NCBI GenBank assembly: GCA_016839055.1 | Contig: JAEKNX010000017.1 | Coordinates: 1-64,000, forward strand | DNA from: Spirochaetales bacterium | GTDB lineage: Bacteria; Spirochaetota; Spirochaetia; UBA9216 | Reading direction: 5' to 3' | Length of the DNA stretch: 64,000 bases | Part shown: piece after piece, positions 35,413 through 41,020 of the stretch | Numbering within the stretch: position 1 is the first letter of the stretch | Layout: each line of letters begins with the position of its first letter | Made by a program: the position numbers and the translations under genes | The notes under the pieces: model-generated | Databases searched by the model: none | What the model saw: only the letters and a program-made list of their open reading frames with translations | What the model was told of the DNA's origin: nothing

Positions 35413-37341
35413 ATGACGGAAAACAAGAATAATATCTCTATTTTAAAACTATCGTATTCAGAGCTAAACGGGATAGAAAACGTTATTCCTGAAGATACCA
35501 GGCTAATTCTCGGTTTTATTTCTCCCGATATCGACTTTAGGGAAGCCTCAGCAAGAATAAAAAATATCAGCGGCAATATCCCCCTGATTTTAACCTCAAC
35601 AGCCGGAGAACTCTGCAACATCAGCAACGGCGGCCGGCATCCTCTGTATAATCCGGCTGATGAGAACCGGCAAAGTATTGTTCTTCAATGCTTTTCTTCT
35701 GATATTATCGATGATGTAGATATACATTCAATTGAGCTTTCAGATCCGGGGATGGATCCTGAACAAAGGACGGCACTCATCGAGAAGGAGATTACGAAGC
35801 TGCGACCGTCCTTTCCCCTGAATTATCAGAACTGCGTCGCCTACACGCTGATTGACGGACTTTCCCGAAGTGAAAGCTTCTTTATGGAAGCTGCTTATAA
35901 CTCAGGAAAGCTGCCTTGCCTGCTTATTGGAGGATCAGCAGGCGGTAAACTGGATTTTCAGAATACCTATATTTACAACAATAACGAGGTCGTTCAGAAT
36001 AAGGCCGTTATTACTCTGCTCCGTTTTAAAAGCGATATAAAAATCGGCGTATTTAAATCTCAGAATTTTGAAATAAAGCCTTATTCCTTTACCGTGGCAG
36101 AGGCTGATCCGGCTAATAGATATATTAAGACAGTGGTCAGAAAGGATACCGGGGATATTGTTGATGCAATCTCGGAACTCTGCAGACATTTTAACTGTGC
36201 TGAAGATCAGCTTGAAAAAAACCTGGAATCCTACAGCTTTGCAATAGTTATAAATAACGATATCTATGTAAGATCAATTTCCGGAATCAACTTCAGCAGC
36301 AGGGAAATCCATTTCTACTGCGATCTTGCCTTCGGCGATGAACTTGTACTTGTAAAGCATACTGATTTCCTTTCTTCGATAGAGAAAGACTTTGCCCAAT
36401 TCCGTAAGGGCAAAAGTGGAGAACTCCTCGGCGGACTTTTTAATGACTGCATACTCAGACGGCTTTTTAACCAGAATGAACTGAGCGGGGTTAAACTCTT
36501 CGACAATATACCTGTCGCCGGATTCTCCACCTTCGGAGAACTGCTGGGAGTGAATATCAATCAAACCCTTACTGCCCTGATGTTCTATCGGGTCAAGCCG
36601 GGAGAGAAATTCCATGATGAATATATTGATAATTACATTCAGAAATACTCTGCTTTTAAAGAGTTCTTCTTAAAGAGAACTATTAATCAGATGAAACATA
36701 TCATGAAGATTAAAGACCAGGTCTGGAAGTCAAGCAGGGAAAGCATCGAACTGTTTTCCGAATTTATTGAAAAATCCTCACAAAAGGCAACGGAAAATGA
36801 GACTTTTTTAACAAAAATCAATGAAAATTTCATAGCTCTTCATCATAATATTGATGATTCAAATACAGAGGGAAACAATATCAGCAATGAACTGATAAAG
36901 CTGGAGCAAAGTGCCGGCACAATTGAACAAGTTCTATATAGTATTGTTGACATTGCCGGTCAGATAAATCTTCTAGGCTTAAATGCCTCAATTGAAGCCG
37001 CTCGTGCCGGAAACGCAGGCAAAGGGTTCGGTGTAATAGCTAAGGAGGTTAAATCTCTTGCTGACAAAACGGATCTAAGTGTCAGAGATAGTAAGGAATC
37101 AATAACAAACCTTATAAACAGTATGTCACAGCTGCAGGAACAATGTGATATTATTATCACCTCTCAGGTTAGCGCAAAAAACCTGGGCCGGGATCTGAAT
37201 GATACAATTACCCGCCTGGCCGATAACTCTAAAATAATCGAAAACAGTATTTCAAAGAACGCTGTTGAGGTTAAAGCTTTAATTGATAATCTTGATTCAA
37301 TGCTGAAAACTATCGATATTCTTGCAAGCAGCAGCGTATGA
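35413..37341 (+). CDS. Soluble chemotaxis receptor with FIST sensor domain
   Basis: 642 residues with no membrane segment. N-terminal FIST domain ([16 protein letters not shown] and [14 protein letters not shown] are typical), FIST-C region to about residue 390, then a methyl-accepting signalling domain with the tip [24 protein letters not shown] domains are thought to bind small ligands such as amino acids; here the sensor would respond to a cytoplasmic signal and feed the chemotaxis pathway. Confidence 0.9.
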
Positions 37342-37355
37342 GCTCCCTATCAACC

Positions 37356-38135
37356 TTAAATCCTCGTGCCCATCCGGTTCCCGGAGCTGTATTTTTTCAG
37401 GCCTGCCTGAAACACAACTACCGAAAGAATAATAATTGCGACATCTGCTGAGAGAAGTACCAGGAGTTTCTTCAAATCGAAGGATGCAAAGATCTCTGCC
37501 GGAATCCAGGCCACGAGGGCTGCCGGAATAACCGAGTGAAGAATCCAGGTTGAGGGAGCGGAGAAAATTGATCCCGGATAGAGGATGAACATAATAACCA
37601 TTTCGGTTATAGTCCCTGCAAACTGTTCGGCATTTCCCAGAAAAAAGGTAAGGCTGTGATAAATGATTCTCACCGCCGTAAAAACCACCGCCATCAATAT
37701 TGAAAAAACCAGAAACATAAGTACCTTATGGGGCTCAAAACTCTGGGTCAGAAAATAAAGAACAATACCATAGGTTACGTCCCCCCAGCCGGCAGTATTC
37801 ATCCTGGAGCAAACCAGATTGGGAAGAATAGCCCGGGGCTGAAGCAGATAGACATCGAGCTCACCCTTGTAGATTATAGAGGAGATAAACCGGGAGTTGC
37901 CCATGAAGACTTCAGCCAGACCGTAACCCAAGGCTGCAAGGGCCCAGAGAAACATCACATCCGAGAACCCGTATCCATTGATGTCCCCCCCTATCCTTTT
38001 ATAGAGAATCATCCAGAAAAAAATAAAGGCGCAGTTATTTAGAAACATTCCAAATACCTGAATCAGAAAGGAGGCCCTGTACTCCATTCCCGCCGATAAG
38101 TTAAATACGAAGTACTTCTTTAATAATTTCCACAT
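37356..38135 (-). CDS. ABC-2 family permease
   Basis: 259 residues, about six hydrophobic segments; family pattern of ABC-2 type permeases (DUF990-like) with the loop GELDVYLLQPRAILPNL. Third gene of an exporter operon with the permease upstream (3-base gap) and the ATPase. Confidence 0.82.
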   Translation of the reverse strand: MWKLLKKYFVFNLSAGMEYRASFLIQVFGMFLNNCAFIFFWMILYKRIGGDINGYGFSDVMFLWALAALGYGLAEVFMGNSRFISSIIYKGELDVYLLQPRAILPNLVCSRMNTAGWGDVTYGIVLYFLTQSFEPHKVLMFLVFSILMAVVFTAVRIIYHSLTFFLGNAEQFAGTITEMVIMFILYPGSIFSAPSTWILHSVIPAALVAWIPAEIFASFDLKKLLVLLSADVAIIILSVVVFQAGLKKYSSGNRMGTRI

Positions 38136-38138
38136 ACT

Positions 38139-38930
38139 CTAGCCTCCCTGAACATGGATTTTCTTCAAAGCCGTCCTGAAAATCAGATAAGCTGTAAAAG
38201 CCAGAACTGCAATATAAAAGGCCTGCCCGAAAAGAGCCGTTCTGAAGTTTTCCATGGAAAAATCAACCATGGTAATGGCCGGCCAATAGGCGGAAAAAGC
38301 AAAAGGCGCAGCCTTAGCAGCAGTCTGCAGCCAGTCAGGGAAGAAATCGATGGGCAGGAACATTCCTCCGGCTATAAATATCAGCTTCTGCAGTATCCAG
38401 TAGAAGGGAGTAACCTCCTCCGTCCAGAAAGCCAGCAGTCCTATTATGAGGCCCCACATGATGTTAAGGGTTATTCCGCCTATTATCAGGATGATTCCAA
38501 AAGGCAAGGCACTCCAGTATCCCGGCAGCATTCCTGTAAACAGGAAACACACGATAAATCCCAGCAACATAATGGGTATAACTTTCACGAGACTTTCTCC
38601 AAGAGACCGGGCAACCTTAAAACCGTTATAGGAATAGGGGCGCCCCAGAGCATAGGCTATGGATCCTTCTTTGACCTCTTCCTGAATCTGAATATACACC
38701 CTCGCTTTTGACAGTTCGACAGCCTCGGTAAAAGAGAGATACCAGAGGGTCTGAGTAAGGCTTAGACCTGCAATTAAATTCTGGCCCCGGTATATTACCG
38801 ACCAGAGAGAGAAAAAAACAAAGAGGATTATAACAAAGAAGATATTTCCAATGAGGTAGGCAGGGATGTAGGCAAATTGATCTCTTATGGTGCAGCTGAA
38901 TATCATCCGGTATTTGCGCAGGTGCGTCAT
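38139..38930 (-). CDS. ABC-2 family permease
   Basis: 263 residues, six hydrophobic segments and the cytoplasmic loop EEVKEGSIAYALGRPYSYNG, the counterpart of the loop in the neighbouring permease. Start overlaps the ATPase stop by four bases. The two unlike permeases presumably form the channel together. Confidence 0.82.
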   Translation of the reverse strand: MTHLRKYRMIFSCTIRDQFAYIPAYLIGNIFFVIILFVFFSLWSVIYRGQNLIAGLSLTQTLWYLSFTEAVELSKARVYIQIQEEVKEGSIAYALGRPYSYNGFKVARSLGESLVKVIPIMLLGFIVCFLFTGMLPGYWSALPFGIILIIGGITLNIMWGLIIGLLAFWTEEVTPFYWILQKLIFIAGGMFLPIDFFPDWLQTAAKAAPFAFSAYWPAITMVDFSMENFRTALFGQAFYIAVLAFTAYLIFRTALKKIHVQGG

Positions 38931-39901
38931 ACGCCCCCCTCATAAATCGATGAGATAACCTCATCCATCGGCATGGTTGAGATGCTGATATCACTTATGT
39001 TGTGCCTTGTAACCAGGGCCGACATCACTTTTTTCATTGAAGTAACAGTTAGGTCCACTTCGAGCTTGGCCGAGCAGCCCTTCTCTTTCAGCAGTTCAAC
39101 GCCTTTCATGTTAAGCGCCACCGGTTCTTCAAGCCTTACATTGATTATTCTCTTGTTAAGCAGAGAATATTTCATCTGTTTCACCGAACCGTCCCAGACC
39201 ATCTGCCCCTTGTTAATTACAATAACCCTGCGACAGATCTTCTCGATGTCGCAGGTGTCATGGGACGTAAGAAATACAGTAACCTTGCTGTCCTGGTTTA
39301 TTCTCGTGATAAGCTCACGAATTCTCTGCTTGACCACTACATCAAGACCGATTGTCGGCTCATCGAGAAAGAGGATCTCAGGGCTATGGATGAGAGACGC
39401 GGCTATTTCACACCTGATTCTCTGACCAAGGGATAATTTCCTTACAGCCTGATTAAGAAAGGGGCCAATTTCAAAAACTTGAGTCAGGTAAGCTACCCGC
39501 TTCTTGATCTCAGGGGCGCTCAGATTATAAATACTACCTAAAAGATCAAAAGAATCGGACGGAGGAAGATGATACCATAGCTGACTCTTCTGGCCGAAGA
39601 CGGCACCGATTCGGTAGGCTAGTTTCTTTCTGTCTTTATGGGGGTCCATATTTAGTACGGAAACCCGCCCCTCGTCAGGATAGAGGATACCGGTTATAAG
39701 TTTAATCGTCGTCGATTTTCCTGCGCCGTTGGGACCTATGAAGGCGGTAATCTCCCCTTCTTCAACCGAAAAAGAGATATCATTCACAGCCTCTATAGAC
39801 CTATACTCCGGAGAAAACATGTTTTTCAGGGAACCTTTGAATCCGCTGCCCTTTACCCTGCTTTTAAATGTTTTGCTTAAACCATCTACTTCCAGCACCA
39901 T
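38927..39901 (-). CDS. ABC exporter ATPase (NatA-like)
   Basis: 324 residues. Walker A GPNGAGKST, signature LSLGQRIRCEIAASL, Walker B ILFLDEPTIGLD and H-loop LTSHD are intact; a C-terminal extension of about 90 residues follows. I start at ATG 39901 (MVLEVDGL), seven bases after GGGG; the longer frame to 39925 would run through the hairpin. Preceded by a long hairpin-rich leader. Cargo unknown. Confidence 0.88.
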   Translation of the reverse strand: MVLEVDGLSKTFKSRVKGSGFKGSLKNMFSPEYRSIEAVNDISFSVEEGEITAFIGPNGAGKSTTIKLITGILYPDEGRVSVLNMDPHKDRKKLAYRIGAVFGQKSQLWYHLPPSDSFDLLGSIYNLSAPEIKKRVAYLTQVFEIGPFLNQAVRKLSLGQRIRCEIAASLIHSPEILFLDEPTIGLDVVVKQRIRELITRINQDSKVTVFLTSHDTCDIEKICRRVIVINKGQMVWDGSVKQMKYSLLNKRIINVRLEEPVALNMKGVELLKEKGCSAKLEVDLTVTSMKKVMSALVTRHNISDISISTMPMDEVISSIYEGGV

Positions 39902-39919
39902 AAACAACCCCTTATTTTG

Positions 39920-39960
39920 AGGCAACTCAATAACACGTAATTGTGAATATTGAGTTGCCT
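39920..39960 (-). promoter_or_regulatory. Inverted repeat just upstream of the ABC exporter ribosome site
   Basis: Perfect 13-base inverted repeat (AGGCAACTCAATA / TATTGAGTTGCCT) with a 15-base spacer. In the mRNA it would form a hairpin whose 3' foot is directly before the GGGG ribosome site at 39908-39911; on DNA it could be an operator. Confidence 0.6.
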
Positions 39961-40017
39961 TGGAGTTTATTTATTTCCTTATCAGTCAATAAATAAACAT
40001 CCATTACATCTATTGTA

Positions 40018-40047
40018 GATAGTTAAAAACTGCAGTTTTTAACTATC
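40018..40047. promoter_or_regulatory. 30-base perfect palindrome in the exporter leader
   Basis: Centre CTGCAG at 40030-40035, arms GATAGTTAAAAACTG and its complement, no loop. Either a strong hairpin or a dyad operator. A smaller inverted repeat ATCTA-ttg-TAGAT overlaps its edge (40008-40020). Confidence 0.6.
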
Positions 40048-40052
40048 CTGTA

Positions 40053-40088
40053 TAAAAAAAAGACCCGCCGGTTAAAACCAACGGGTCT
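40053..40088 (-). terminator. Terminator-like hairpin within the exporter leader
   Basis: On the minus strand: stem AGACCCG / CGGGTCT with inner pairing GGTT/AACC, followed by eight T. It lies about 150 bases before the ATPase gene and directly after the 24-codon leader frame, so it could end the upstream transcript or act as an attenuator. Confidence 0.75.
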
Positions 40089-40110
40089 GAAAATACAATG
40101 CTACCGCCGG

Positions 40111-40185
40111 TCAGGTTTTCTCATAGTTAACGAGGACGAGTTTAGGTAGTGCTGAAATAATCTGAAAATTAACTGAAACCGGCAT
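40111..40185 (-). CDS. Possible 24-codon leader peptide
   Basis: ATG at 40185 with TGGAG seven bases upstream; product MPVSVNFQIISALPKLVLVN plus YEKT, stop TGA at 40111-40113. The stop is 23 bases before the terminator hairpin. No known leader peptide is recognised; the frame could be chance, but its placement between a ribosome site and an attenuator-like hairpin is suggestive. Confidence 0.4.
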   Translation of the reverse strand: MPVSVNFQIISALPKLVLVNYEKT

Positions 40186-40340
40186 ATTTACTCCATTTAA
40201 AAGTGCGTTCTTACAACGCTTGAGTTTATAATAAAAAAAGATGTATTTCATGTCAATTGCATTAAAAAAAAAGACGTTATTCAATTGTTTGAATTTTTAA
40301 CCACGGTATCAACTTCACTGACTATATGCTACGTGTAAAA

Positions 40341-40628
40341 TCAGCCAACCTTCTTCTTGCTAAATTCATCTTCGATTTTCTCGGCTAAAAAGACTTTAAG
40401 AAGTGATTGGTAAGGGACGTCACGCTTGTTTGCCAAGATTTTTAAATCGTCAATCAAGTCCTGAGGTAATCGGATAGAAATAGATTTTGTTGTGGGCTTC
40501 AGTTTAGGAAATCGGGCTACTTGGGACTCATCCCAGTCCAAATAGTCCGTTGAATCATGATCTTCCCAGAATTTGCGTTCTTCCATCTCATTTTCAAACT
40601 CAGGAAGTTCTTTTTTGGTTGTCTTCAT
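40341..40628 (-). CDS. brnA: BrnA-type antitoxin
   Basis: 95 residues. C-terminal ribbon-helix-helix-like segment (SISIRLPQDLIDDLKILANK) and acidic N-terminal part (FWEDHDSTDYLDWDES) as in BrnA. Antitoxin of the BrnT ribonuclease and probable autorepressor of the pair. Overlaps the end of brnT by 29 bases. Confidence 0.88.
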   Translation of the reverse strand: MKTTKKELPEFENEMEERKFWEDHDSTDYLDWDESQVARFPKLKPTTKSISIRLPQDLIDDLKILANKRDVPYQSLLKVFLAEKIEDEFSKKKVG

Positions 40629-40905
40629 ATACTCTAATCTCCCTTTTGGTCATCTCTCTGGCAGAGATAACTCGGATTTTATCAGAACGAATAGTAAACG
40701 CGATGAAAAGCAGCCTATCATGATTTGTTTGCCCCAAAGCATAAAACCGCTCTTCTGTTCGAGAGTGCTTACAGTCACGCTTAACCACTAAGGGATGATT
40801 GAAGAAAATCTGCTCAGCCTCAGTATTAAAAACGTTGTGCTTTCCAATATTTTTATAGAAATTATCCTCATCCCAATCGAAACCGACAATATTGGAAAAA
40901 TCCAC
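40600..40905 (-). CDS. brnT: BrnT-type ribonuclease toxin
   Basis: 101 residues. Family opening VGFDWDEDNFYKNIGKHNV and later ERFYALGQTNHDRLLFIAFT, IRVISAREMTKRE. BrnT is a RelE-fold ribonuclease that stops translation and is held by BrnA. I choose the GTG at 40905, five bases after GAGGAGG; the in-frame ATG at 40929 would lie before that ribosome site. Confidence 0.9.
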   Translation of the reverse strand: MDFSNIVGFDWDEDNFYKNIGKHNVFNTEAEQIFFNHPLVVKRDCKHSRTEERFYALGQTNHDRLLFIAFTIRSDKIRVISAREMTKREIRVYEDNQKRTS

Positions 40906-41020
40906 TAAAGCCTCCTCGTTTGTATACAATCATAATATACAACAAAAGGCTGTGATTGAAAAGGTTTAATTTATTATCTTAAATTCTAATTCTGTACTAA
41001 ACTCCGCATTATCCATAATA

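Follow-up and report, generated by a model that had tools for sequence, protein, structure and literature searches.

The minus-strand segment from 40256 to 40053 of a 64,000-nucleotide stretch of DNA from a Spirochaetales bacterium (contig JAEKNX010000017.1 of GenBank assembly GCA_016839055.1; that whole stretch is referred to here as 'the window') most likely controls a three-gene ABC-2 export operon as a ribosome-mediated transcription attenuator. This segment and its neighbor at 40048-39917 are two separate things, the first most likely an attenuator and the second a copy of a dispersed repeat, and the most likely reading of the sequence comparisons as a whole is that the window leader is an authentic, conserved attenuator, its kind known and its lineage little explored, and that its union with the repeat is accidental. 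Leader-peptide attenuators of exporters are best known from Bacillota; the leaders described here would add a family of such attenuators, together with the exporter that they precede, from a different class (probably Spirochaetia, judging by the distribution of TD-1 RNA), with several of them apparently carried on leaderless mRNAs and with a pump that is possibly drug-inducible. The arrangement also illustrates how a repeat copy that adjoins a genuine regulator may be taken for one of its parts.

Layout of the leader and of the exporter operon

Read 5' to 3' on the minus strand, the locus comprises a promoter, a TGGAG ribosome site, a 24-codon frame, a terminator, three hairpins, an AAGGGG ribosome site, the ATPase gene and two permease genes (Table 1). 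The features named in the original prediction (TGGAG, the frame, a T-tailed hairpin, a palindrome and a 13-base inverted repeat) were all recovered at their predicted positions; the promoter at 40256-40228, the pairings designated 1:2 and 2:3, and a further hairpin at 40002-39962 are additions to that list.

Table 1. Positions of the leader, repeat and exporter features in the window, in minus-strand order.
Feature	Positions	Strand	Remarks
Sigma-70-type promoter, TTGACA-17-TATTAT, near-consensus	40228..40256	-	promoter scan; shuffles
Leader frame, 24 codons plus stop, reads MPVSVNFQIISALPKLVLVNYEKT	40111..40185	-	TGGAG ribosome site from 40195
Region 1, GCCGGTTTCAG, leader codons 1-5	40173..40183	-	pairs with region 2
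Region 2, CTGACCGGCGG, overlaps leader stop codon	40104..40114	-	pairs with region 1 or 3
Region 3, CCGTTGGTT, in terminator 5' arm	40076..40084	-	pairs with region 2 (antiterminator) or terminator 3' half
Intrinsic terminator, region 3:4	40053..40088	-	hairpin 40088-40061, 12 pairs, then 8 T
Three-hairpin repeat copy	39917..40048	-	hairpins 40047-40018, 40002-39962, 39960-39920
Exporter ribosome site, AAGGGG	39913-39908	-	before ATPase
ABC ATPase, 324 aa	38927..39901	-	start codon at 39901; first gene of exporter operon
Permease, ABC2_membrane_6 (PF06182)	38139..38930	-	after ATPase
Second permease, ABC2_membrane_6 (PF06182)	37356..38135	-	third gene of operon

The promoter, the ribosome site and the frame are all present in the window, and a frame at the same place is found in 11 of 29 orthologous loci, the window included. 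None of 400 shuffles of the 100 nucleotides preceding the ATG gave as good a promoter at 20 to 60 nucleotides from that codon. The -10 box ends 42 nucleotides ahead of the ATG; transcription begins about 7 nucleotides behind such a box, and the transcript would start near 40221. A start between 40050 and 39960 had been named in advance as an outcome that would speak against an attenuator, and a scan of the minus strand of that interval against the promoter consensus found nothing resembling a promoter.

Three mutually exclusive pairings (1:2, 2:3 and 3:4) are possible within the leader. Region 1 (GCCGGTTTCAG) pairs with the part of region 2 that reads CTGACCGGC and contains the leader stop codon (TGA, 40113-40111), while region 2, taken as GACCGGCGG, pairs with region 3 (CCGTTGGTT); the frame ends 22 nucleotides ahead of the terminator hairpin. 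In the mechanism that we propose, RNA polymerase would start near 40221, and three outcomes would follow: (i) a ribosome that reads the frame to its stop would cover region 2, so that the 3:4 terminator would fold and the exporter would remain untranscribed; (ii) a ribosome stalled earlier in the frame would cover region 1, leaving region 2 free to pair with region 3, so that no terminator would form and the exporter would be made; and (iii) were the frame left untranslated, 1:2 would pair and termination would occur by default. Upon read-through the three-hairpin repeat would lie within the 5' untranslated region, where it may affect stability or translation. The sequence itself shows the parts, the exclusive pairings and how these are conserved among close relatives, as well as the repeat character of 40048-39917; from this anatomy we infer translation of the frame, the stalling with its cause, and read-through. 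A ribosome-targeting compound would be the likeliest cause of stalling, and is our best guess for the inducer, because the anatomy would measure how far the ribosome advances and the peptides have no run of any one amino acid in common.

Two of the features by which such an attenuator is recognized exist in the window: a terminator ahead of the regulated gene, and an antiterminator that excludes it and has a 5' arm within reach of a ribosome on the frame. Seven terminator-like sites were found in 5 kb (4.5 were expected), and the leader terminator has the most pairs; the 67-nucleotide stretch that includes it has a folding energy of -22.2 kcal/mol (z -3.1), and the fold of the 139-nucleotide leader, at -35.8 kcal/mol (z -3.4), consists of 1:2 together with 3:4. 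A 1:2 pairing as strong arose in 15 of 300 shuffles. As single folds the window pairings are weak, 1:2 being matched by 36 of 200 shuffles and 2:3 by 25 of 200, and the antiterminator is modest, with 40 of 500 shuffles as good when assessed by local folding (which was used against shuffles instead of RNAduplex, the latter being too permissive when the frame is set against the terminator arm). Because the window's own 1:2 and 2:3 folds are weak relative to shuffles, the case for an attenuator rests on comparison.

Immediately upstream of the leader (40341-40929, minus strand) lie genes for a BrnT toxin and a CopG/BrnA-type antitoxin, and convergent with the exporter operon is a gene for a FIST-domain protein fused to a chemotaxis signaling domain (35413-37341, plus strand). 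Relatives of the ATPase in the PDB gave no information on the substrate.

Comparison of orthologous leaders

Among 394 genomes of the class, 29 encode the ATPase at E<=1e-95, one each, and up to about 450 nucleotides upstream of each ortholog were scanned (about 115 in L039 and 327 in L056). A terminator accompanied by an ATG frame of 21 to 40 codons that ends 18 to 30 nucleotides before the hairpin was found in 11 of the 29 (L026, which is the window, L027-L031, L033-L035, L041 and L057), in accordance with the original prediction of a leader frame and attenuator ahead of the exporter; the remaining 18 have no such frame plus terminator within the scanned 450 nucleotides or less. The two closest relatives retain regions 2 and 3, CCTGACCGGCGGTA and TTCAGACCCGTTGG being letter-identical in the window, L027 and L028. 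The frames of these same three loci have diverged, and read MPVSVNFQIISALPKLVLVNYEKT in the window, MKSIISFDFQLLLAPVFHRIT in L027 and MKAMSLIDSKLQYVLYVPVFHRKT in L028. A search for TGACCGGCGGT-N(12-34)-GACCCGTTGG found this pattern in 3 of the 394 genomes, always before this exporter, and the reversed control gave no occurrence.

The antiterminator was compared with 500 shuffles at each leader-type locus, with all counts to be read in the knowledge that related rows are not independent. Shuffles as good numbered 40 in the window, 23 in L027, 16 in L028, 1 in L029, 4 in L030, 332 in L031, 13 in L033, 64 in L034, 269 in L035, 41 in L041 and 271 in L057. At most 41 of 500 shuffles thus matched it in seven of the 11 leaders (under 5% in five), and four lack support, the pairing being no better than shuffles in L031, L035 and L057 and weak in L034.

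In hydrophobicity the 11 leader peptides exceed shuffled codings, of which 2 of 2000 sets scored as high, and their hydrophobic runs are longer (3 of 2000 sets had runs as long). A lack of conservation of the frame among relatives had been put forward as a ground for rejection, and the position of the frame is kept, its peptide letters only within close groups and not across them.

In six of the 11 leaders (L029, L030, L031, L033, L041 and L057) a -10 box ends only 5 to 14 nucleotides ahead of the ATG, at promoter-like sites that 0 to 11 of 400 shuffles equaled. Because transcription would begin about 7 nucleotides behind that box, these six frames probably stand on leaderless or nearly leaderless mRNAs, unlike the window frame, which has a ribosome site. 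The scan found no convincing promoter in L027 or L028, and the sites in L027, L028, L034 and L035 were equaled by 58 to 327 of 400 shuffles.

The view that the leader has no recognized relative holds for Rfam and fails for genomes, where the relatives described above exist. Across window positions 37000-41000, at E-values up to 1, Rfam gave two matches, both far below gathering scores (RsaF and anti-hemB, set aside as chance); no match reached the gathering score in the ten other leader-type loci, and among 22 of the 29 ortholog loci the one match at that level was a group II intron in L038. An ATPase search of named genomes returned two distant loci only, a plasmid search returned matches under 60% identity only, and a search widened to the family and order to which G111 (the genome of L027) belongs yielded no further leader.

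Both of the closest relatives show peculiarities of their own. L027 carries about 130 extra nucleotides between terminator and ATPase (positions 1320-1460 of that locus), for which a repeat search of four genomes returned one match, the stretch itself. L028, from genome G081, has an intact leader, but downstream of its ATPase the first permease is missing and nothing except the end of the second is present; its operon looks degraded or affected by an assembly fault.

What the leader may sense, and alternative readings

Rather than responding to a ribosome inhibitor, the leader might encode an arrest peptide that detects the substrate of the exporter itself, in the style of SpeFL or TnaC. We consider this rather unlikely, and nevertheless a serious rival because of a riboswitch-like motif in a sister clade: a guanidine-I-like motif lies upstream of the ATPase in ten ortholog loci (L042, L043, L044 and L059-L065), at the place that the leader occupies elsewhere, which suggests regulation by substrate; the enrichment of a hydrophobic core in the peptides also favors it. 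Arrest peptides are usually conserved, however, and these peptides are not conserved between groups; furthermore, the ATPases of the riboswitch clade are only about 50% identical to that of the window, so that the substrate may differ.

The guanidine-I-like pattern was drawn by eye from these same ten loci, and neither the window locus nor any of the ten other leader-type loci contains it. The Rfam model of the guanidine-I (ykkC) riboswitch, RF00442, gave matches at E<=0.5 in five of the 11 loci submitted, all below gathering, with a best sister-clade score of 55.9 against a cut-off of 63. L039 combines a terminator with a partial guanidine-I-like motif (by eye) near the end of its examined stretch of about 115 nucleotides, and seven loci (L032, L036, L037, L038, L040, L056 and L058) have neither a leader frame and terminator nor the motif in the scanned stretch. 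A divergent ykkC-like motif stands before PF06182-type exporters in one clade.

In a tree of 34 ATPase rows (the 29 orthologs and five more distant sequences), the ten riboswitch rows cluster together (100/99) with L039 beside them (99/99), and the leader rows are found in other parts of the tree, interspersed with rows that lack both leader and motif. A broader proposal is that the exporter clade has swapped sensors that perform the same task: one branch would use a guanidine-type riboswitch and the other a ribosome-read leader peptide, frequently encoded on an mRNA that is leaderless or almost so, which may be an arrest peptide for the pump's small-molecule substrate; we regard this as decidedly speculative and improbable. 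The window ATPase groups with those of G111 and G081, which belong to another family (100/99), and among the best eight candidates per genome no ATPase at E<=1e-60 was found in four congeners and two other members of the window organism's own family; these two observations suggest that exporter and leader were gained horizontally.

The original prediction had allowed that the hairpin might simply end another transcript. Such a terminator would close the upstream brnTA transcript (or serve nothing), and the 24-codon frame would be there by chance: brnA, which shares the exporter's strand, ends at 40341, about 250 nucleotides ahead of the hairpin, and short frames are common. Opposing this, a strong promoter stands between brnA and the frame, and the combination of frame, spacing and terminator recurs in 11 of 29 orthologs beside different upstream stretches; the terminator is therefore unlikely to belong to an upstream gene, and we hold this reading to be very unlikely. 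When the longest open stretches upstream of the leader loci (stop-to-stop, at least 80 codons, within 1500 nucleotides, and not annotated genes; L035 has none) were compared, the one pair that proved similar at E<=1e-5 was that of L027 and L028, and in L027, L028, L031, L033 and L034 the longest one is on the opposite strand.

An amino-acid attenuator of the trp or his type, in which the ribosome stalls when one charged tRNA runs short, would have a like anatomy of regions 1 to 4; this is most improbable, given that the operon encodes an exporter and that the 11 peptides (by eye) share no regulatory run, runs of three or more being confined to NNNN in L034 and LLL in L027 and L034.

The ribosome-mediated attenuator that we favor has a close counterpart in the bmrB leader of bmrCD. 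BmrCD is another kind of ABC exporter, and ermK is grouped with bmrB as a ribosome-mediated transcription attenuator; the window pump, unlike BmrCD, is of the ABC-2 type (PF06182), and the likeness to bmrB that we draw is one of anatomy. The report on bmrB in Bacillus subtilis describes a short frame, alternative stem-loops and an intrinsic terminator ahead of an ABC exporter, as in the window, and states that translation of the frame is required for lincomycin-induced read-through; the bmrB terminator lies inside a 53-codon frame, whereas that of the window lies 22 nucleotides behind a 24-codon frame, with region 2 on the stop codon (PMC4191407). The toiL uORF of Escherichia coli topAI is likewise reported to be a short frame that senses stalled ribosomes, and differs in that it unmasks a ribosome site and acts through Rho-dependent termination, the window leader having an intrinsic terminator (PMC12121999). 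A survey of premature terminators reports that ABC transporters are the family with the most attenuation candidates (205) and that syntenic genes switch sensing systems (T-box versus leader peptide); the words spirochaet and treponema are absent from its main text (PMC2965389). The available text of a Borrelia 3'-end map discusses uORFs, and nothing on this exporter was found in it (PMC10319736); nor was a description of the leader or the repeat found in the accessible portions of the open-licence literature on leaders, repeats and TD-1, the guanidine riboswitch and the exporter family.

A dispersed three-hairpin repeat ahead of the exporter

The palindrome at 40047-40018 is a perfect one of 30 bases (z -6.3), and the 96-nucleotide stretch at 40010-39915, which includes the inverted repeat (39960-39920) and the hairpin at 40002-39962, has a z of -8.9. 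Parts of 40041-39921 match, at the DNA level, at least ten places in the congener G001 and at least three in G004 among 11 candidates scored per genome (the best match being 82% over 122 nucleotides), and the first 209 bases of the query, on the side of the frame and terminator, match neither genome. By eye, the element begins 10 to 78 nucleotides behind the stop of a same-strand frame in nine of the 13 places listed. An alignment of nine of the 14 copies looked at, including that of the window, gives three hairpins with 95.1% of cells paired, and 13 of its 46 pairs show changes on both sides; none of 500 shuffles was as high, the structure having been derived from the same alignment.

A model built for the element (R1) matched, at E<=0.001, 16 times in the window genome, 25 in G001, 5 in G002, once in G003, 12 in G004, twice in G005, once in G006 and 23 times in G029, or in eight of 31 genomes; the E-values are rough, and some matches represent one element on both strands or tandem copies. 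Tandem copies of the three-hairpin element are seen on contigs 35 and 10 of the window genome (L083 and L087). A transposable element of the MITE kind would have similar copies scattered through the genome, inverted repeats at its ends and a duplicated target; the copies of this repeat are dispersed, and in some of them the ends resemble each other in inverted orientation (by eye).

Run over the 29 ortholog loci, the same model found only the window's own copy. The terminator lies 35 to 58 nucleotides from the ATPase in L028, L029, L030, L031, L034, L035 and L041, 82 in L033, 72 in L057 and 190 in L027; with the 132-bp repeat removed, the distance in the window would be about 30. Because of this distance, and of the absence of the element from the other 28 ortholog loci, the repeat is best read as a later insertion that forms no part of the switch. 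The original prediction had drawn the palindrome and the 13-base repeat into the leader mechanism, and a single composite leader spanning the whole 284-nucleotide region would place all parts on one read-through transcript, with the last hairpin ending 6 nucleotides before the exporter ribosome site; this is scarcely credible given that absence and the recurrence of the element in G001 and G004 without frame and terminator.

Among described elements, TD-1 and TD-2 RNA (RF03155 and RF03162, clan CL00124) are dispersed hairpin elements found in the same bacterial class, and the middle hairpin of the window's repeat (GGATGTTT...AAACTCC) resembles, by eye, a TD-1 hairpin read on the other strand (GCGATGTTT...AAACTCG). 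No match of the repeat to TD-1 exceeded the Rfam cut-off; at E<=0.01 the TD-1 model gave no matches in the window genome (G000) or in G001-G003, one weak match in G004, 8 in G049, 45 in G029 and 48 in G155. The repeat family has relatives in the TD-1-bearing G029 (L074-L079), and one of these R1-type copies, L079, matches TD-1 weakly on the other strand (40.8 bits against a cut-off of 64.5). At L089, a TD-1 match on one strand overlaps a TD-2 match on the other, a hint that what the two models represent may be portions of dispersed DNA repeats.
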